Shown piece by piece: positions 15,725 through 34,345 of a DNA stretch of 34,345 nt (positions are counted from its first letter, which is position 1; every line of letters starts with the position of its first letter). Made by a program: the position numbers and the translations under genes. The notes under the pieces were generated by a model. The model had not been told where the DNA came from. It did no database searches and saw nothing but the letters and a program-made list of their open reading frames with translations. The stretch lies in assembly GCA_015064795.1 (NCBI GenBank), contig SVRO01000005.1:1-34345 (forward strand), in the 5' to 3' direction. Source of the DNA: Oscillospiraceae bacterium (GTDB lineage Bacteria > Bacillota > Clostridia > Oscillospirales > CAG-272).

Positions 15725-16768
15725 ATGGAACTTTTCGAAAAAATAATCCAAATCTCCTCCATGATGTCGGTCACGGGCTATGAGGACTACGAGGATTCCT
15801 CACTCCGTGATCTTGTGGAGGGAGAATTTGACGCGATCGAGGCCGATGCGCTCAAAAACCGCATCCTCGTGAAAAAATGCGGCCGCGAAAACGCGCCTAA
15901 GATCCTCATTGACACGCATTTTGACGAGATCGGAATGTACGTCAGCGACATTCATGAGGGCGGCTTCCTTTCGGTCGTCAACATCGGAGGCCTTGATACA
16001 CGCATTTTGCAGGCGGCCGACGTGATGATCTACGGCAAGAAGCTGCTTCGCGGTGTCATTGCCTCCACACCGCCGCATTTGGCGCGCGCGGAGGATAAGG
16101 GCAAGCTTTGCGCGGTGGACAAGCTCTTCATCGATACGGGCTACGATAAGCAGGCGCTCGCCTCGCTCGTTGCGATCGGCACGCCCGTGGGCTTTGCTCC
16201 GAAATATACCCGTCTTGGTGAAAAAATGCTGGCAGGCAAGGGCTTTGACAACAAGGCCTGCGCGGCCTGCGCCATCGAGGCGATCACCAAGACCGCACGC
16301 GAGGAGCTGGCGGGCGACGTCTATCTGTTGCTTTCGGCACATGAGGAGACCGACCGCTTGGGCGGTGTGGTGTGTGGTGCGTACCGCATTCTTCCTGACT
16401 ACGCCATGGTGGTGGACGTCAACCTCGGTCGCACACCCGACACGCCTACGCACGAAACGGTGGCGCTTGGCAAGGGAATCTCGGTCACACTTTCGGCGGT
16501 GACCGACCGCAAGCTGACCGCGCGTACGCTGGCACTTGCCGAGGAAAAGGAGATCCCCGTGCAGAGAATCGTATCGGCCAATTCCACGGGCACCAACGCC
16601 GAAACGCTTGGGCTCGTAAAGGGCGGCATTCCCGTGGTGGACGTGGGACTGCCCTTAAAGTCGATGCATACCTATAACGAGGTCTTGCATCTTGACGATT
16701 GCGATACGCTTACGGCACTGATCGCGGCCTTTATTTGCGATAAAAAGACGGCGGAGGTGTTCGCATGA
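15725..16768 (+). CDS. M42 family metallopeptidase (paralog 1, more divergent)
   Basis: THFDEIG, KGFDNKACA, SAHEETDRLGG, VVDVNLG, MHTYNEV match M42 metal/catalytic positions. Confidence 0.85.
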   Translation: MELFEKIIQISSMMSVTGYEDYEDSSLRDLVEGEFDAIEADALKNRILVKKCGRENAPKILIDTHFDEIGMYVSDIHEGGFLSVVNIGGLDTRILQAADVMIYGKKLLRGVIASTPPHLARAEDKGKLCAVDKLFIDTGYDKQALASLVAIGTPVGFAPKYTRLGEKMLAGKGFDNKACAACAIEAITKTAREELAGDVYLLLSAHEETDRLGGVVCGAYRILPDYAMVVDVNLGRTPDTPTHETVALGKGISVTLSAVTDRKLTARTLALAEEKEIPVQRIVSANSTGTNAETLGLVKGGIPVVDVGLPLKSMHTYNEVLHLDDCDTLTALIAAFICDKKTAEVFA

Positions 16769-17835
16769 GTGAGAAATTAGAATTGCTTCGCTCGCTTTGT
16801 CTTGCCTTTGGCCCCTCGGGATGCGAGGATGAGGTGCGAGAGAAGATCCTTGCAGAAGGAAAGAAATATTGCGCCGATCACCGCGTGGACGGCATGGGAA
16901 ATCTTGTTTTCTCGTTTCGTCCCGAGGGAGCAACGAAAAAAATGATGCTCTCGGCTCATATGGACGAGGTTGGCTTTATGATCCACACGGTCACCGACGA
17001 GGGCTATTTGAAATTTGCCACGCTCGGCGGGATCGACGAGAGGGTGCTTTGCGGAAGATGCGTTACGGTGGGGAACGAGACGCGGCGTGTGAGCGGCGTG
17101 ATCGCCTCCAAGGCCATTCACCATCAGGACGCCGACGAGCGCAAAAAGACCACGCCCGCGAAGGAGATGCTGATCGACATCGGCGCATCCTCGAAGGAGG
17201 AGGCCGAAAAGCTGGTTTCGATCGGCGATTTTGGTACCTTTGACAGCGAATTTTATGAGTTCGGTGACGAGAAGGCACCGCTTATAAAGTCCAAGGCACT
17301 TGACGACCGTCTCGGTTGCGCGGTGATGCTTCTCACGATGCGCAAGATCGCCTCGGGCGAGATCACGCCAAGCATGGAGGTGGACTTCTGCTTCACGGTG
17401 CGCGAGGAGCTTGGGCTTTCGGGCGCGAAGGTGGTCGCGGAGCGACTTGCTCCCGATTACGCGATTGTGCTGGAAACGACGGCGATTGCCGATGTTGCGG
17501 GTACCGAAGCATCACTTCGCGTGGCTGACGTGGGGCAGGGTGGCGCGATCTCACTTTTGGATCGCTCCACCATTTACGACACGGCTTTCGTGCGTTACGC
17601 GCTGGAGCTTGCCGAGGCGAACGGCGTTCCCGCGCAGGTCAAGCGTTTTGTTTCGGGCGGAAACGACGCGGGACATATCCACAAGAGCGGAAAGGGCGTC
17701 AAGTGCTTGGCGCTTTCCGCGCCGACTCGCTATCTCCATTCGCCCTCCTGTGTGGCGGCACTTGCCGATTATGAGGCGGTTGAGAGGTTGGTAGCACTCA
17801 TGCTGAACGACGCGGATCTGGAAAGGAAGGTATAA
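16765..17835 (+). CDS. M42 family metallopeptidase (paralog 2)
   Basis: SAHMDEVGFM, KALDDRLGCAV, VREELGLSGAKV, RYLHSPSC; ATGA overlap with previous gene. Confidence 0.92.
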   Translation: MSEKLELLRSLCLAFGPSGCEDEVREKILAEGKKYCADHRVDGMGNLVFSFRPEGATKKMMLSAHMDEVGFMIHTVTDEGYLKFATLGGIDERVLCGRCVTVGNETRRVSGVIASKAIHHQDADERKKTTPAKEMLIDIGASSKEEAEKLVSIGDFGTFDSEFYEFGDEKAPLIKSKALDDRLGCAVMLLTMRKIASGEITPSMEVDFCFTVREELGLSGAKVVAERLAPDYAIVLETTAIADVAGTEASLRVADVGQGGAISLLDRSTIYDTAFVRYALELAEANGVPAQVKRFVSGGNDAGHIHKSGKGVKCLALSAPTRYLHSPSCVAALADYEAVERLVALMLNDADLERKV

Positions 17836-17836
17836 C

Positions 17837-18832
17837 ATGTATCAAACACTCAAGGAACTGATAAAGGTACACGGTGTTTCGGGCCGAGAGGGAGCAGTGG
17901 CCAAGGCCATTTCCGAAAAAATAGCCCCCTACGTGGACGAGATCTCTACCGATGCGCTCGGCAACTTGATCGCGCTGAAAAAGGGAAACGGCGAGAATAA
18001 GAGAAAGCGTATGCTTTGCGCGCATATGGACGAGATCGGATTTATCGTCACGTATATTGAGGATAACGGCTTTTTGCGCGTCTCGAATATCGGCGGTATC
18101 CGCTTTATTCCCTCGGCATATATGCCCGTGGTTTTTGAAAACGGACTGCACGGTGTGGTGGCACCCGACGAGGAGCTTGCCAAAAAAGAGGATTACAAGG
18201 CAACGAATTTTTATATCGACATCGGTGCCAAGGATAAGAAGGACGCCGAAAAGCGCGTAAAGATCGGGGATTGTGCCGTGATCGAGCCCTCGCTTACCCG
18301 TCTTGCCGGTGCAAGAGTTGCCGCGCGCCCCGTGGATGATCGCATCGGATGCGCCATTCTCGTGGATATTGCCAAGCGGCTGGAAGTTCTCAAGGACGAT
18401 GTGTATTTCGTCTTTTCGGTGCAGGAGGAGGTCGGCTGTCGCGGTGCGAAAACGGCGGCCTTTGCCATCAAGCCCGACGACGCGCTCGTCTTTGACGTGA
18501 CGGGCACGGGCGACGTGCCGGGAGCCAAGCCCATGGCGATCTCACTTGGAAAGGGCGCGGCTATTAAGGTGAAGGACAGCTCGGTCATTTGCCATGCGGA
18601 AACGGTCGCTCGCTTGCAGGAGCTTGCGCGGGAGAAAAAGATTCCTTATCAAATGGAGATCCTGACCTACGGAGGTACCGACACGAGCTCCATACAGATG
18701 ACGGGAGTCGGCGCCAAGGTCGGTGCGATCTCGATTCCCACGCGCAACATTCACACGGCGACGGAGATCGTGGATATGCACGATGTCGAGGCCTGCCGCG
18801 ATCTTGCGCTGGCGTATCTTTGGGCGGAATAA
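17837..18832 (+). CDS. M42 family metallopeptidase (paralog 3)
   Basis: CAHMDEIGFIV, RPVDDRIGCAI, SVQEEVGCRGAK, VFDVTGTGD, RNIHTATE. Confidence 0.92.
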   Translation: MYQTLKELIKVHGVSGREGAVAKAISEKIAPYVDEISTDALGNLIALKKGNGENKRKRMLCAHMDEIGFIVTYIEDNGFLRVSNIGGIRFIPSAYMPVVFENGLHGVVAPDEELAKKEDYKATNFYIDIGAKDKKDAEKRVKIGDCAVIEPSLTRLAGARVAARPVDDRIGCAILVDIAKRLEVLKDDVYFVFSVQEEVGCRGAKTAAFAIKPDDALVFDVTGTGDVPGAKPMAISLGKGAAIKVKDSSVICHAETVARLQELAREKKIPYQMEILTYGGTDTSSIQMTGVGAKVGAISIPTRNIHTATEIVDMHDVEACRDLALAYLWAE

Positions 18833-27973: not shown

Positions 27974-28954
27974 CTAAGAAAAGATTTGATCGGAGAGTAG
28001 GGAAACGAGGTCGAGTGCCTCAGATTCGGGGAGGGCTTTTTGCAACGCGTCGCGCATTGCCGCAAGGTCAACGGGGCGAGAGATCAGCGCGTGAGCCACC
28101 CGATCGGGAAGCGTCGTATCAAGCGCATCGGTGTAGAGCTTGAGATCGGCAATCACGCCGCCCGTCACCTGCATTTGCAATTCCACACTTCCAAAGGAGA
28201 GGCGACCGCTACAGGAGACATTGAAGGGGAGGGGGGAGCCGTAAAGATACGCCCGACTTCCAAAAAGCGCGGTAAACTCGGCGATGTTTTCGTCCTTGAT
28301 CTCGTCGAGTGGTTCGTGCGGCAGCCCGTATACCTCACGGAAGGCGGTGAGAAGATGCTCTTTCATGCGCGCGCAGGTGAGCGTTGGCGCAAGCTCCGTG
28401 AGGTTGACCACACGCGAGCGTACCGATTTTACGCCCTTGGCCTCCAGCTTTGCCTTGGGCGGCGTGAGGTAGCGCGTCATTTTTTCGGTGTCGGCCGCGA
28501 TCATCAGCGTGCCGTGGTGGTAGGAGTGTCCTTTGCTGTGATAAAAGGCGTTGCCTGAAAACTTTCGGCCGTCGGCCAGAACGTCGTTGCGTCCCGAACG
28601 TTCGGTCGCGATTCCTGCCAGCGCGCAGGCTCTTTGAATGACCGAGAGCTGCTTGTCCACGTCAAAATTTTCGGTGGCGCAAAGGAAGGTGAAGTTCAGG
28701 TTGCCAAGATCGTGAAAAACCGCGCCGCCGCCCGAAAGGCGCCGCGCAAGATGTCCGCCCTCGCTCTCCAAAAGCTCGGTGCGGCATTCCGCAAGGGCGT
28801 TTTGGTTCTTGCCGATCACAACGGTGTTTTGATTTTGCCACAAATAGAGAATAAAGGTCTCACCGTCCACCTCGTCGAATAAATATTTTTCGCGGGCAAG
28901 ATTGGCGTAGGGGTCAAAATCGTTACTTATATAAAAATGAAGTTTTTTTATCAC
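27974..28954 (-). CDS. lplA: Lipoate--protein ligase A (GTG start)
   Basis: LWQNQNTVVIGKNQNALAECR, RRLSGGGAVFHDLGNLNFTF, GRNDVLADGRKFSGNAFYH, HHGTLMI; GTG at 28954 after AAGGAGAAAAC. Confidence 0.95.
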   Translation of the reverse strand: MIKKLHFYISNDFDPYANLAREKYLFDEVDGETFILYLWQNQNTVVIGKNQNALAECRTELLESEGGHLARRLSGGGAVFHDLGNLNFTFLCATENFDVDKQLSVIQRACALAGIATERSGRNDVLADGRKFSGNAFYHSKGHSYHHGTLMIAADTEKMTRYLTPPKAKLEAKGVKSVRSRVVNLTELAPTLTCARMKEHLLTAFREVYGLPHEPLDEIKDENIAEFTALFGSRAYLYGSPLPFNVSCSGRLSFGSVELQMQVTGGVIADLKLYTDALDTTLPDRVAHALISRPVDLAAMRDALQKALPESEALDLVSLLSDQIFS

Positions 28955-28988
28955 GTTTTCTCCTTGCTTTCGGTAAAAATACAACAAT

Positions 28989-29017
28989 ATTTTAATATAT
29001 CTTGTGAAAAATGTCAA
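28989..29017 (-). promoter_or_regulatory. SigA-type promoter of lplA
   Basis: Minus strand TTGACA (29017-29012), 17-nt spacer, TAAAAT (28994-28989). Confidence 0.78.
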
Positions 29018-29046
29018 TAGACAATTTGAGAGATGCGTGATATAAT
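29018..29046 (+). promoter_or_regulatory. SigA-type promoter of the DeoR-family regulator
   Basis: TAGACA (29018-29023), 17-nt spacer, TATAAT (29041-29046). Confidence 0.75.
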
Positions 29047-29066
29047 AATGTTATAATATGTTATAA
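29047..29066 (+). promoter_or_regulatory. Putative operator copy 1: AATGTTATAATATGTTATAA
   Basis: 20-bp sequence identical to 29881-29900; near-dyad TTATAA-N4-TTATAA; directly downstream of a -10 box. Confidence 0.7.
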
Positions 29067-29093
29067 ACTTGAATGCTTAAAACGGGAGGTTTT

Positions 29094-29843
29094 ATGAATC
29101 GCATCAGACAGGATCGTATCAAAAAATATATTGAAAATCAAAACATCGTCACGATTAAGGAGCTTCGCGAGCTTTTTCCCGACGTTTCGCTTATGACGCT
29201 TCACCGCGATCTTACTGCGCTTGAGGAAATGGGGGTGCTGACCAAATTCCGCGGCGGCGCCCGCTCGGTGCATCAGCGCGACGAGGTCGAATTTGACATT
29301 CGAATGAAGGAAAATAATGCGGGCAAGCTTTCCATGGTCAAAAAGGCCATGAAGCTGATAAAGGCCCAAAGCTCGCTTTTTTTGGATGCGAGCACGTCCA
29401 ATCTTTTTTTGGCAAGCAAACTTCCCGATGTGGATCTCAACGTCACCACGATCAGCCCAAATATTGCGCTTGAGCTTTGCAAGCTCAAAAATCCCGTGGT
29501 CAATTTGTGCGGTGGCACCATGAATCGTCGAACGTTGTCGGTTTCGGGGGTGAACACGCTGGATCTTCTCGATCGGATCAATATTGATCTGGCGTTTATC
29601 GGCGTTTCGGGTTGTTCAGCCGAGGAAGGCTTTACCTGCGGCACCGAGGCCGATATGCTCATTAAAAGTCGCGTGATACGGAAGGCTCGCACGACTGTGG
29701 TGCTTTGCGGTGCAGATAAGCTGAAGCGTCTGATGCCGTATACCTTTGCTACCTTTTCCGATGTGGACTATATTATAAGCGACCAGCCCTTGCCTGAGGC
29801 CTTCGTTCAAAAATGCCAAGAAAACGGGGTGAAAATCCTGTAA
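29094..29843 (+). CDS. DeoR/GlpR family transcriptional regulator
   Basis: N-terminal HTH IRQDRIKKYIENQNIVTIKELRELFPDVSLMTLHRDLTALEEMGVLTKFRGGA; DeoRC domain with VNLCGGTMNRRTLSVSG and ADLAF-like IDLAFIGVSG. Confidence 0.94.
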   Translation: MNRIRQDRIKKYIENQNIVTIKELRELFPDVSLMTLHRDLTALEEMGVLTKFRGGARSVHQRDEVEFDIRMKENNAGKLSMVKKAMKLIKAQSSLFLDASTSNLFLASKLPDVDLNVTTISPNIALELCKLKNPVVNLCGGTMNRRTLSVSGVNTLDLLDRINIDLAFIGVSGCSAEEGFTCGTEADMLIKSRVIRKARTTVVLCGADKLKRLMPYTFATFSDVDYIISDQPLPEAFVQKCQENGVKIL

Positions 29844-29872
29844 AATTGATTGTAGATTTTTCGGAAAAGTAA

Positions 29873-29901
29873 TTGACACAAATGTTATAATATGTTATAA
29901 T
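29873..29901 (+). promoter_or_regulatory. Consensus SigA promoter of the E2-E3-E1 operon
   Basis: TTGACA (29873-29878), 17-nt spacer, TATAAT (29896-29901). Confidence 0.85.
29881..29900 (+). promoter_or_regulatory. Putative operator copy 2: AATGTTATAATATGTTATAA
   Basis: Exact 20-bp match to 29047-29066; overlaps spacer and -10 of the promoter. Confidence 0.7.
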
Positions 29902-29933
29902 AAACTGATATCATATTTTAAGGAGGATTTGTT

Positions 29934-31199
29934 TTGGCAAATGCTGTAATCATGCCCAAGGCCGGTATCACGGTAGAAAGCTGTATCATCGGTAATTGGG
30001 AGAAAAAAGTTGGAGATGCGGTAAAGGTAGGAGATATTCTCTTTACATACGAAACCGACAAGGCAAGTTTCGAATGTGAATCTACCGCAGAGGGTACCTT
30101 GCTTGAGATCTTCTATAACGAAGGTGACGAGGTTCCTTGTCTTGTAAACGTTTGTGCGGTTGGAAATCCCGGCGAGGATTGCTCCGCCCTTCGTCCCGAA
30201 TCTGCTGCTCCCGCGGCAGCTGAGGAAAAGCCTGCCGAGGCACCTGCTGCCGAGGAGAAGAAGGCAGAGGTTGCCGCTCCTGTGGCTACCACGGCCGTAG
30301 ATGGCGCAAAGACTGCGATCTCCCCCAGAGCCAAGAAGCTCGCAGAGCGTGCAGGCGTTGACGCCGCACTTGCTACCCCCACGGGCCCGAACGGCCGAAT
30401 CATCGAGCGCGACGTGAGAACGCTGATGGACAACCCCGTAGTTGCTGCGGCAAAGGTTGAGGCACCTGTAGCGGCACCCGCCGTCAATGCCGTCGTCGAC
30501 GAGGCCGAGTACACCGACGTGAAGTTCAGCGGTATCCGCCGTGCGATCAGCAAGTCGATGCACACCTCGCTGTCCACCATGGCACAGCTTACGCACACCA
30601 CCTCCTTCGACGCTACCACCATTCTTGCTTATCGCAAGATGCTTAAGGCGGCCGAGGGTGAGTATGCGGGCATCACGCTTGGCGACATCATTCTTTATGC
30701 CGTTTCGAGAACGCTTCTCAATCACCCCGACCTCAACGCGCATATGCTTGACGACAACAACATCCGTCTGTTTAAGCATGTCAACCTCGGCGTTGCCGTT
30801 GACACGCCCAGAGGACTTATGGTTCCCACCATTTTCCACGCAGACGAGATGAGCCTTCTTGAGATCTCGAAGGCCGTGAAGTCGCTTGCCGCACAGTGCC
30901 GCGAGGGCAACATCAGCCCCGATAAGCTTACGGGCGGAACCTTCACGGTTTCCAACCTCGGCAACATGGGTGTTGAGTCCTTCACGCCCGTTATCAACCC
31001 GCCTCAGACGGGTATCCTTGGTGTTTGCTGCACTACGGAGCGCGTAAGAAAGGCTGCCGACGGCTCGCTTCAGGTCTACTCCGCAATGGGTCTCAGCCTC
31101 ACTTACGACCACCGCGCCGTAGACGGCTCGCCCGCAGCTCGCTTCCAGAAGGAGCTTGCTCATAATCTTGAAAACTTTACGGCACTTCTTGCTAAATAA
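29934..31199 (+). CDS. 2-oxoacid dehydrogenase E2 component (dihydrolipoamide acyltransferase), TTG start
   Basis: Lipoyl domain ETDKASFECESTAEGTLLEIFYNEGD, peripheral-subunit-binding segment ISPRAKKLAERAGVDAALATPTGPNGRIIERDV, catalytic LTYDHRAVDGSPAARF; AGGAGG then TTG. Confidence 0.95.
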   Translation: MANAVIMPKAGITVESCIIGNWEKKVGDAVKVGDILFTYETDKASFECESTAEGTLLEIFYNEGDEVPCLVNVCAVGNPGEDCSALRPESAAPAAAEEKPAEAPAAEEKKAEVAAPVATTAVDGAKTAISPRAKKLAERAGVDAALATPTGPNGRIIERDVRTLMDNPVVAAAKVEAPVAAPAVNAVVDEAEYTDVKFSGIRRAISKSMHTSLSTMAQLTHTTSFDATTILAYRKMLKAAEGEYAGITLGDIILYAVSRTLLNHPDLNAHMLDDNNIRLFKHVNLGVAVDTPRGLMVPTIFHADEMSLLEISKAVKSLAAQCREGNISPDKLTGGTFTVSNLGNMGVESFTPVINPPQTGILGVCCTTERVRKAADGSLQVYSAMGLSLTYDHRAVDGSPAARFQKELAHNLENFTALLAK

Positions 31200-31211
31200 G
31201 GAGATCATACT

Positions 31212-32579
31212 ATGGAAATTTTTGATTTGTTGGTTGTGGGCGGCGGTCCCGGCGGATATCTTTGCGCCGAGCGTGCGGCTCAGGGCGGCATGAAGGTTGC
31301 CGTATTCGAGAAGAAGGCACTTGGAGGCACCTGCCTGAATGAAGGTTGTATTCCCACCAAGACCCTCCTTAATTCCTCGAAGATGTACAGACATGCCAAG
31401 GAGAGCGAGGCGTACGGCGTTACGGCTACGGGCGTTACCTACGATCACGCTAAGGTCGTTGAGAGAAAGAACGGCGTGGTTAAGACCCTCGTTGCAGGCG
31501 TTGGCGCTACCATGAAGGGCAATAAGGTTACGGTCGTTACGGCAAATGCCGTGATCAAGGGCCGCACCGAGAACGGCTTTGCCGTTGAGGCAGATGGCGT
31601 GGTGTACGAGGGTAAGCGTCTTACCATCGCATCGGGCTCCGAGACCGTGGTTCCTCCCGTTCCCGGCCTTAAGGAAGGCCTTGCAAGCGGATTCGTACTT
31701 ACCAACCGCGAGGTTCTTGATGAAAAGACTCTCCCGAAGAGCATCGTTGTCATTGGCGGTGGTGTTATCGGTCTTGAGATGGCTTACTATTTCGCAAGCG
31801 TTGGCGTTGCCGTCACCGTAATCGAGATGATGCCCAAGATCGCCGGCGCAACCGATCCCGAGATCTGTAAGGTCCTTACCGACGCTTTCGTAAAGCGCGG
31901 TATGGTATTCAAGCTTTCTTGTAAGGTGCTTGAGGTTAAGGCAAATAGTGTTATTTATGAAGAAAACGGCGAGAAGAAGGAGATCGCTTGCGATAAGGTT
32001 CTTCTTTCCGCAGGACGTAAGCCCTCCACGGCGGGCATCGGTATCGAGACGCTTCAGCTCGATATGGACAGAGCGGCGATCAAGACCGACCGTCACCTTT
32101 GCACCAATGTCTCGGGCGTTTACGCCGTTGGTGACTGCAACGGTAAGCTTATGCTTGCTCACACCGCATACCGTGAGGCAGAGGTTGCCGTAAACCATAT
32201 GCTTGGTAAGGCAGACGAGATGCGCTACGACGTGATTCCTTCGGTTATCTACACCGATCCCGAGGTGGCAAGCGTTGGTTACAGCAAGGAAGCCGCCGAG
32301 GAGAAGGGCATGAAGGTCAAGGAGATCAAGCTGCCCATGTCCTACGCAGGCCGTTATCTCGCTGAGACCGACGGCGGCAAGGGCTTCATCAAGCTTGTGG
32401 TTGACACCGATAAGAACCGTCTTGTAGGTTGCCACATGGTAGGCTCCTATGCTTCCGAGATCATTATGACCGCTACGATGATGATCGACACCGAGCTGAC
32501 ACCCAACCGTCTCAAGAAGCTCGTGTTCCCGCATCCCACGGTTGCCGAGATCATTCGCGAGGCTATTTTCCACATATAA
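31212..32579 (+). CDS. lpdA: Dihydrolipoyl dehydrogenase (E3)
   Basis: LLVVGGGPGGYLCAERAAQGGMKVAVFEKKALGGTCLNEGCIPTKTLL; redox CxxxxC; VYAVGDCNGKLMLAHTAYRE; C-terminal FPHPTVAEI. Confidence 0.96.
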   Translation: MEIFDLLVVGGGPGGYLCAERAAQGGMKVAVFEKKALGGTCLNEGCIPTKTLLNSSKMYRHAKESEAYGVTATGVTYDHAKVVERKNGVVKTLVAGVGATMKGNKVTVVTANAVIKGRTENGFAVEADGVVYEGKRLTIASGSETVVPPVPGLKEGLASGFVLTNREVLDEKTLPKSIVVIGGGVIGLEMAYYFASVGVAVTVIEMMPKIAGATDPEICKVLTDAFVKRGMVFKLSCKVLEVKANSVIYEENGEKKEIACDKVLLSAGRKPSTAGIGIETLQLDMDRAAIKTDRHLCTNVSGVYAVGDCNGKLMLAHTAYREAEVAVNHMLGKADEMRYDVIPSVIYTDPEVASVGYSKEAAEEKGMKVKEIKLPMSYAGRYLAETDGGKGFIKLVVDTDKNRLVGCHMVGSYASEIIMTATMMIDTELTPNRLKKLVFPHPTVAEIIREAIFHI

Positions 32580-32618: not shown

Positions 32619-34345
32619 ATGCCAAAGAATTTATTCGTTGATCCCAAAGACACATTGGCAGCCGGTAAGATTACCTTTAAGAGCATTCCGGTAAACGCCT
32701 ACAAGAAGACCATCAAGGAGGAGAGAAGCCGCTACAGCGACGAGGATCTCGTCCGTATCTATCGCGACATTACCGTTCTTCGTGAGTTCGAGTCGATGCT
32801 TAACCAGATCAAGACCCAGGGACTCTACAACGGTATCGAGACCACCTACCCCGGCCCCGCTCACCTTTCCATCGGACAGGAGGCAGCAGCCGTAGGTCAG
32901 GCATACCTTCTTGACCAGAACGACTTCTCGTTCGGTTCGCACCGTAGCCATTCCGAGATTTTGGCAAAGGCTCTCTCTTGTATCCATAAGCTGAGCGAGC
33001 AGGAGCTCATGACCATCATGGAGGGATTCCTTGGCGGTTCCGCTCTTCGCGCAACCGAAAAGCTCGGCCCGGTAAGCGACGTTAAGGAGCTTGCTATTCG
33101 TTTCATTCTTTACGGAACGCTGTCCGAGATCTTCGCTCGTGACACGGGCTTCCACAAGGGTATGGGTGGCTCGATGCACGCATTCTTCCTGCCCTTCGGT
33201 ATCTACCCCAACAACGCAATCGTTGGTGGTTCGGCTGCTATCGCAACCGGTGCCGCACTCTTCAAGAAGATCAACGGCAAGCAGGGTATCGTCGTTTGCA
33301 ACTCGGGTGACGGCTCGATGGCTCGCGGACCCGTTTGGGAGGCAATGAACTTTGCCGCTATGGATCAGTTCAACACCCTTTGGGAGAACCACAAGGGCGG
33401 TATGCCGATCCTTTACAACGTATTTAACAACTCCTACGGTATGGGCGACCAGACCCGCGGCGAGACCATGGGCTACGATATGCTTGCCCGTATCGGCTCG
33501 GGTGTCAGCCCCACACAGTTCCATGCAGAGCGTATCAACGGCTTCAATCCTCTCGCCGTTATCGACGCTATGGAAAGAAAGCTCAAGATCCTTCGCAAGG
33601 GCGAGGGCCCCGTTCTTCTTGATACGCTTACCTACCGTTACTCCGGTCACTCCACCTCTGACCAGAACGCGTACCGTACCAAGGAAGAGATCGATGCATG
33701 GCGCGAGATCGACCCGATCATCACCTACCGCAAGGGCCTGGTTGATGCAGGCGTTGTCGGTGATGCGAAGCTCGATGATATTCTTGCCGAGACCGCAGAG
33801 CGCATGACGCTCATCTGCAAGGCTGCTTCGGATCCTCAGATCAGCCCCTACGTTGATTTCCGCAAGGATCCCGCCGTTGTTGAGCGCCTGATGTTCTCCA
33901 ACCAGAAGATCGAGAAGCTTGATGACCGTGAGCCCGAGGTGAATATGCCTCTTGCTGAGGTTCCCGCATATAAGAAGCTCAAGGAGAAGGAGCGCTCTCC
34001 GATCGTTGACGGAAAGCCCGTTTCCAAGATGAAGCTCTTCAACCTTCGTGACGCTCTGTCCGAGGTTATCTACGACAGATTCTACGAGGATCCCACGCTC
34101 ATCGCTTACGGTGAGGACTGCCGTGACTGGGGCGGTGCATTCGCCGTTTACCGCGGTATGATGGATGCGTTCCCGCACAGCCGTCTGTTCAACTCTCCCA
34201 TCGCCGAGGCTGCTATCGTTGGTACGGCCGTTGGTTACGCCGTTTCGGGCGGTCGCGCACTCGTTGAGCTGATGTACGCTGACTTTATCGGCTGCGCAGG
34301 CGACGAGATCTTCAACCAGATGTCCAAGTGGCAGGCAATGAGTGC
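32619..34345 (+). CDS. 2-oxoacid dehydrogenase E1 component, fused alpha/beta (3' end outside window)
   Basis: Open frame from ATG at 32619 (RBS AAGGAGAAAG) to window end: MPKNLFVDPKDTLAAGKITFKSIP...YPGPAHLSIGQEAAAVGQ...GSMHAFF...VVCNSGDGSMARGPVWEAMNFA...NNSYGMGDQTRGE (alpha-type ThDP motif), then MKLFNLRDALSEVIYDRFYEDPTLIAYGEDCRDWGGAFAVYRGM...FNSPIAEAAIVGTAVGYAVSGGRALVELMYADFI (beta-type) in the same frame. Confidence 0.92.
   Translation, partial: MPKNLFVDPKDTLAAGKITFKSIPVNAYKKTIKEERSRYSDEDLVRIYRDITVLREFESMLNQIKTQGLYNGIETTYPGPAHLSIGQEAAAVGQAYLLDQNDFSFGSHRSHSEILAKALSCIHKLSEQELMTIMEGFLGGSALRATEKLGPVSDVKELAIRFILYGTLSEIFARDTGFHKGMGGSMHAFFLPFGIYPNNAIVGGSAAIATGAALFKKINGKQGIVVCNSGDGSMARGPVWEAMNFAAMDQFNTLWENHKGGMPILYNVFNNSYGMGDQTRGETMGYDMLARIGSGVSPTQFHAERINGFNPLAVIDAMERKLKILRKGEGPVLLDTLTYRYSGHSTSDQNAYRTKEEIDAWREIDPIITYRKGLVDAGVVGDAKLDDILAETAERMTLICKAASDPQISPYVDFRKDPAVVERLMFSNQKIEKLDDREPEVNMPLAEVPAYKKLKEKERSPIVDGKPVSKMKLFNLRDALSEVIYDRFYEDPTLIAYGEDCRDWGGAFAVYRGMMDAFPHSRLFNSPIAEAAIVGTAVGYAVSGGRALVELMYADFIGCAGDEIFNQMSKWQAMS

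Follow-up and report, generated by a model that had tools for sequence, protein, structure and literature searches.

The palindromic operator of Escherichia coli DeoR is composed of TGTTA and TAACA arms, and its target is deoxynucleoside catabolism. UlaR, AgaR, LacR, FruR and AxgR are local regulators that adjoin the operons they regulate, and they govern uptake or catabolism of sugars. UlaR and AgaR function as tetramers, and a sensor Asp with a Lys is reported to bind tagatose-6-phosphate and ascorbate-6-phosphate in LacR and UlaR (PMC10991401). A tandem-repeat operator was predicted for AxgR (PMC8579813), and four repeated non-palindromic sites were proposed for FruR of Lactococcus lactis; the motif of SugR, which is of the DeoR type and represses PTS genes for carbohydrate uptake in Corynebacterium glutamicum, is 21 bp long, AC-rich and non-palindromic (PMC2222622), unlike the TGTTA arrays described here. 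CggR and the DeoR protein of Bacillus subtilis belong to the SorC family, a different one from that of our regulator; they bind as a tetramer to an operator in two parts, made up of inverted and direct repeats, and have phosphosugar effectors (PMC11229326). Our literature search found no paper linking a DeoR-family regulator to an oxoacid dehydrogenase operon of the kind considered below, and combining DeoR with the terms pyruvate dehydrogenase, lipoate or acetoin turned up no relevant work.

The window, that is the whole analysed stretch of 34,345 nucleotides from an Oscillospiraceae bacterium, contains a gene for a DeoR-family regulator of 249 amino acids (29094-29843, plus strand) with the recognition helix SLMTLHRDL, which we call H-type. 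It is followed on the same strand by genes of a dihydrolipoyl acyltransferase, E2 (29934-31199), with lipoyl, E3-binding and catalytic domains, a dihydrolipoyl dehydrogenase, E3 (31212-32579; TIGR01350 above cut-off), and an E1 component with fused alpha and beta parts (32619-34345), which runs off the window end; its relative of 821 amino acids in locus L056 has the E1_dh, Transket_pyr and Transketolase_C domains. A lipoate-protein ligase gene, lplA (27974-28957, minus strand; TIGR00545 above cut-off), is the divergent neighbour. E1, lipoyl E2 and E3 encoded together make a pyruvate dehydrogenase-type gene set, and the predicted complex is of the pyruvate or branched-chain dehydrogenase kind; E1 and E2 score below every substrate-specific cut-off, and the E1 is matched by structures of both pyruvate and branched-chain E1 enzymes. 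Elsewhere in the window (15725-18832, plus strand) three mutually similar ORFs, M42-type aminopeptidase-like as judged from their translations, stand in tandem. Like the sugar regulators mentioned above, the regulator adjoins the operon it is predicted to control, which here comprises E2-E3-E1 genes instead of genes of sugar uptake or deoxynucleoside catabolism.

Scanning the sequence confirmed that AATGTTATAATATGTTATAA occurs in exact copies at 29047-29066 and 29881-29900 (both read on the plus strand), in a region that is AT-rich (22-26% GC). Each copy holds two TGTTA half-sites 10 bp, or one helical turn, apart: 29049-29053 and 29059-29063 in copy 1, 29883-29887 and 29893-29897 in copy 2. 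The predicted regulator promoter (29018-29046, plus strand) is a consensus match only, with a -35 TAGACA at 29018-29023, N17 and a -10 TATAAT at 29041-29046, so that copy 1 begins directly after the -10 box, as had been noticed in the original prediction. The placement of copy 2 also stood: the consensus-matching promoter of the E2 operon (29873-29901, plus strand) has TTGACA at 29873-29878, N17 and TATAAT at 29896-29901, and the repeat extends over the greater part of the spacer into the -10, of which it covers bases one to five. The lplA promoter (28989-29017, minus strand; -35 TTGACA 29017-29012, N17, -10 TAAAAT 28994-28989) is devoid of TGTTA units, and in most relatives no array lies on the side of the intergenic region next to lplA; lplA as a direct target is unsupported. 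The -35 boxes of lplA and of the regulator stand back to back (29012-29017 and 29018-29023), and with these boxes abutting, polymerase bound at one promoter should exclude polymerase from the other.

We consider it highly probable that the DeoR-family protein whose gene lies between the two 20-bp copies uses both as operators, and we predict that it represses its own promoter and that of E2-E3-E1. According to this proposal the regulator, as an oligomer that is probably tetrameric, would bind pairs of TGTTA that share a face of the DNA; copy 1, which lies over the transcription start immediately beyond the -10, would serve as an autoregulatory operator that keeps polymerase off the regulator's own promoter, and copy 2, lying over the spacer and -10, would keep it off the E2-E3-E1 promoter. 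A small molecule in the C-terminal sensor domain may release or strengthen the binding. The repeat and its uniqueness, the retained gene order, the half-sites with their spacing at orthologous promoters and the linkage between operator type and regulator type are computed results, from which we infer the physical binding and the oligomeric state; effector and substrate of the complex would likewise be matters of inference.

The suggestion relies mainly on comparison with other bacteria. In a family search the regulator orthologs form a distinct upper group, and E2 lies downstream on the same strand, mostly directly after the regulator, in 47 of the 52 family loci that were read closely; E3 and E1 come next wherever the contig is long enough. 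Some thirty closer relatives (56-81% identity) with the same gene order came from scanning named genomes; they are mostly ruminant gut or rumen MAGs labelled Oscillospiraceae or Clostridia. One further close ortholog of the regulator was found in another family of the order. The divergent lplA is retained in most of the closest relatives. At the E2 promoter these bacteria share a four-half-site array with the consensus TGTTA-N5-TGTTA-N4-TAACA-N5-TAACA, in which TGTTA (inverse TAACA) is the conserved half-site. Among E2 promoters of 30 related loci we counted 23 forward pairs with N5, 19 inward-facing pairs with N4 and 13 inverse pairs with N5, against about 0-0.1 in shuffled sequences, such nulls leaving shared ancestry in the counts. 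Half-site columns carry 1.36 bits of information, spacer columns 0.79 and flank columns 0.2-0.28, with conservation inflated at those half-site letters that overlap the TATAAT box. Half-sites start 10, 9 and 10 bp apart, which would place all four on one side of the helix. In most H-type relatives TTGAC stands immediately 5' of the array. Their regulator promoters carry a related array, usually two TGTTA units with 6 (5, 4) bp between them, then 14 (16) bp and an inverse unit, and the final TAACA lies just before the ribosome site.

Read against these relatives, the window holds two half-sites of what they have as a four-half-site array: its copies are the left half, the right half having decayed. 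The candidate remnant near copy 1 is TAAAA (29078-29082, plus strand), which stands 14 bp past the second TGTTA at the position of TAACA in relatives; it agrees in 4 of 5 letters and is weak alone. Near copy 2 only 3 of 5 letters are left in AAACT (29902-29906). Since the window genus (G000, G106) kept only the direct-repeat half, with the right-hand half-sites eroded, affinity or geometry may differ there. With two direct repeats facing two, the array is unlike the descriptions for UlaR, AgaR, LacR, FruR and AxgR.

The sign of regulation is not readable from sequence, and the array of relatives at the E2 promoter is long enough for reshaping promoter DNA, so one may think of the same regulator activating the E2 promoter, or alternately activating and repressing it. 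We regard this as improbable: at both promoters the units lie inside the spacer, -10 and start region, the usual position of repressor sites, and at the E2 promoter with its consensus -35, N17 and -10 an activator should be unneeded. From operator position, then, we infer repression over activation.

It would be still less probable that the core is an inverted repeat, TTATAA-N4-TTATAA, bound by a simple dimer. This near-perfect dyad had been put forward along with a 10-bp tandem, and as TTATAA is itself palindromic, both are literally true of the two window copies; moreover one relative, L005, has a perfect GTTATAA-N4-TTATAAC. Close relatives, however, break the dyad at the E2 promoter and keep TGTTA, with TTACAA in L004 and L073 and TTATGA in L005 itself, and other relatives read TGTTA-caaag, TGTTA-tgagg or TGTTA-tttgg. 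The tandem thus survives comparison and the dyad does not: the conserved reading is tandem TGTTA, and the TTATAA dyad a by-product of TGTTATAA.

The repeat is also rare outside the locus. Allowing 3 mismatches, the window has no third copy of AATGTTATAATATGTTATAA, and 100 dinucleotide-preserving shuffles yielded none. In the bacterium's own genome (G000; 105 contigs, 1.38 Mb, completeness 78%) the 20-mer matched in these 2 places only at the same tolerance, the reversed control pattern giving 2+2; copies at unrelated promoters, which would have counted against the prediction, were not found there. TGTTA-N5-TGTTA occurs twice in the 1.38 Mb, both times at the two promoters in question. The palindrome TGTKA-N4-TMACA, considered as a further site in this genome, was present at 1 place elsewhere, which equals the control, and was therefore dismissed as such. 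Of 25 genomes from close relatives, 19 have the full array with up to 3 mismatches, in one place each and always at the E2 promoter (reversed control, 4 places). The short form TGTTANNNNNTGTTATAA gave 26 matches in the 25 genomes, 23 of them at the regulator/E2 locus and 3 elsewhere (L184, L192, L198), none of which adjoins a regulator or E2 gene. The off-locus site of L198 (about position 1509; G514:C79:7101-7118) combines a TTGACT promoter with TGTTA-N5-TGTTATAAT before an unknown ORF of 80 amino acids, and is possibly a second target in one genome, or chance. As dozens of related gut bacteria share the gene order and TGTTA placement, almost nowhere else in their genomes, the copies are very probably docking sites of the regulator. 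We propose that it is local and serves the regulator/E2 locus only; the genomes being MAGs and the own one 78% complete, further targets may be missing.

Distant relatives carry instead a single palindrome, TGTTA-N4-TAACA, upstream of the regulator gene, which resembles the operator arms of E. coli DeoR; the operators of the window are direct repeats, unlike that of E. coli DeoR. When motifs were sought de novo upstream of 49 regulator genes, none of them from the window group, the result was TGTTAAAATTAACA, and TGTKA-N4-TMACA was perfect in 18 of the 49 against 0.1 expected, N5 versions occurring in 6. Some deep-branching relatives have a gene of about 420 amino acids for a zinc-type dehydrogenase between regulator and E2 (L106:1072-2331, L108:5781-7037, L109:7080-8336, L039:6927-8180). 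It is a zinc-type alcohol dehydrogenase whose nearest NCBIfam model, IolM, is far below cut-off, and whose nearest structures are ketose reductase and sorbitol dehydrogenase; as a pointer to substrate or effector it is possible but vague. In L094 (5766-7067) this place is taken by an MFS transporter whose similarity to lactate and bile-salt carriers stays below threshold. Among the close relatives, several E2 genes of L077-L102 have 2-4 separate matches to the window E2, spaced by about 350 bp, which look as if lipoyl domains had been duplicated.

Regulators themselves fall into two types by recognition helix, MT[LIV]HRD in 41 of 41 H-type proteins and MT[LIV]RRD in the 88 R-type ones, and one branch of the regulator tree parts H from R (support 100/99; root unsure). 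A second operator before E2 was found in 23 of 31 H-type loci and in 0 of 55 R-type loci; the median regulator-E2 distance is 131 bp in the former and 55 bp in the latter. The short gap and the lack of an operator signature in the 55 R-type loci make it probable that the whole operon there is driven from a single promoter ahead of the regulator. In the wider R-type set the palindrome TGTKA-N4-TMACA occurs in 25 of 87 regions (0.23 expected). TGTTA half-sites are enriched upstream of both R-type and H-type genes, and TGTGA ones upstream of R-type genes (131 versus 39.5 expected), with a weak excess in H-type (22 versus 14.1). This tracking of operator type by regulator type may be taken as the best indirect evidence that the regulator binds these sites; the H/R split being one event in the tree, it is a correlation and a single piece of evidence. 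Though the repeat overlaps the -10-like TATAAT and TTATAA in an AT-rich stretch, we find it hardly credible that some other, unlinked regulator uses the copies, or that they are a duplicated promoter sequence that nothing binds, as TGTTA instead of TATAAT is conserved, the 10-9-10 spacing is held across 30 loci, the full array occurs once per genome at the regulator/E2 locus, operator type follows the adjacent recognition helix, and in 4 of the 5 loci where no E2 follows the regulator ortholog (L006, L016, L030, L032, L054) the perfect palindrome is missing. Taken as a reading of the two copies as DeoR-family operators, through which the regulator would act on its own gene and on the E2 operon together at promoter-overlapping sites, the original prediction gains strong comparative support, half-sites being conserved in the orthologous intergenic regions of relatives that have the regulator-E2 pair.

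Membership of the regulator in the DeoR family is clear from its N-terminal winged helix (PF08220, 46.3 bits versus a cut-off of 21) and C-terminal DeoRC sensor of RpiA/ISOCOT-like fold (PF00455, 125.9 versus 31.8). NCBIfam equivalogs for GlpR, AgaR, UlaR, SrlR, DeoR and YgbI are all far below cut-off, the best being NF041397 with 136 of 300 bits. Among PDB entries the AlphaFold model (pLDDT 91) is most like E. coli DeoR (7l6l, E 2.7e-13; 1.5 A rmsd over 173 columns, 20% identity), a protein of the same family that shares the winged helix and RpiA-like sensor domain, and next come ribose-5-phosphate isomerases; CggR and SorC are poor fold matches (TM 0.34-0.39 on query). The recognition helix, reading MTLHRD, differs from that of E. 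coli DeoR.

Another difference concerns the sensor. The inducer-pocket Asp, found in the DHSK of E. coli DeoR, is Gly206 in the window regulator, which therefore lacks the Asp and Lys pair of LacR or UlaR type for phosphosugars; among H-type regulators 20 of 41 have the Asp, among R-type ones 78 of 88, and Lys209 is invariant in all 129. The replacement bears on the effector and leaves family membership untouched. It weakens the earlier idea that the switch links sugar-phosphate status to oxoacid oxidation: such an effector is possible but unsupported, as the Asp is Gly here and variable in H-type proteins, with the Lys invariant. It would be tempting to suggest, as a rather doubtful conjecture, an unnamed DeoR subgroup outside sugar catabolism, which would sense the 2-oxoacid/acyl-CoA or lipoate branch via the Asp-less pocket and gate the lipoate-dependent complex in anaerobes bearing pyruvate:ferredoxin oxidoreductase (PFOR), its four-half-site operator having arisen with the change of the recognition helix.

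PFOR is encoded elsewhere in the own genome (a frame of 1,195 amino acids, 1,728 bits versus a cut-off of 911), and matches of some strength were found in 25 of 25 genomes, above cut-off in 16, so that the lipoate-dependent complex is not the sole route from pyruvate. What we predict here is a new local regulon: its regulator comes from a known family, and its operator array is distinctive. In the ruminant gut, many anaerobes carry a lipoate-dependent oxoacid dehydrogenase beside the ferredoxin enzyme, and the locus offers a predicted switch for the former, whose defined operator is ready for a reporter and can be checked. The family also presents a natural series for repressor-operator co-evolution, from one palindrome to a four-unit array and a two-unit direct repeat, along with the R-type and H-type helix.
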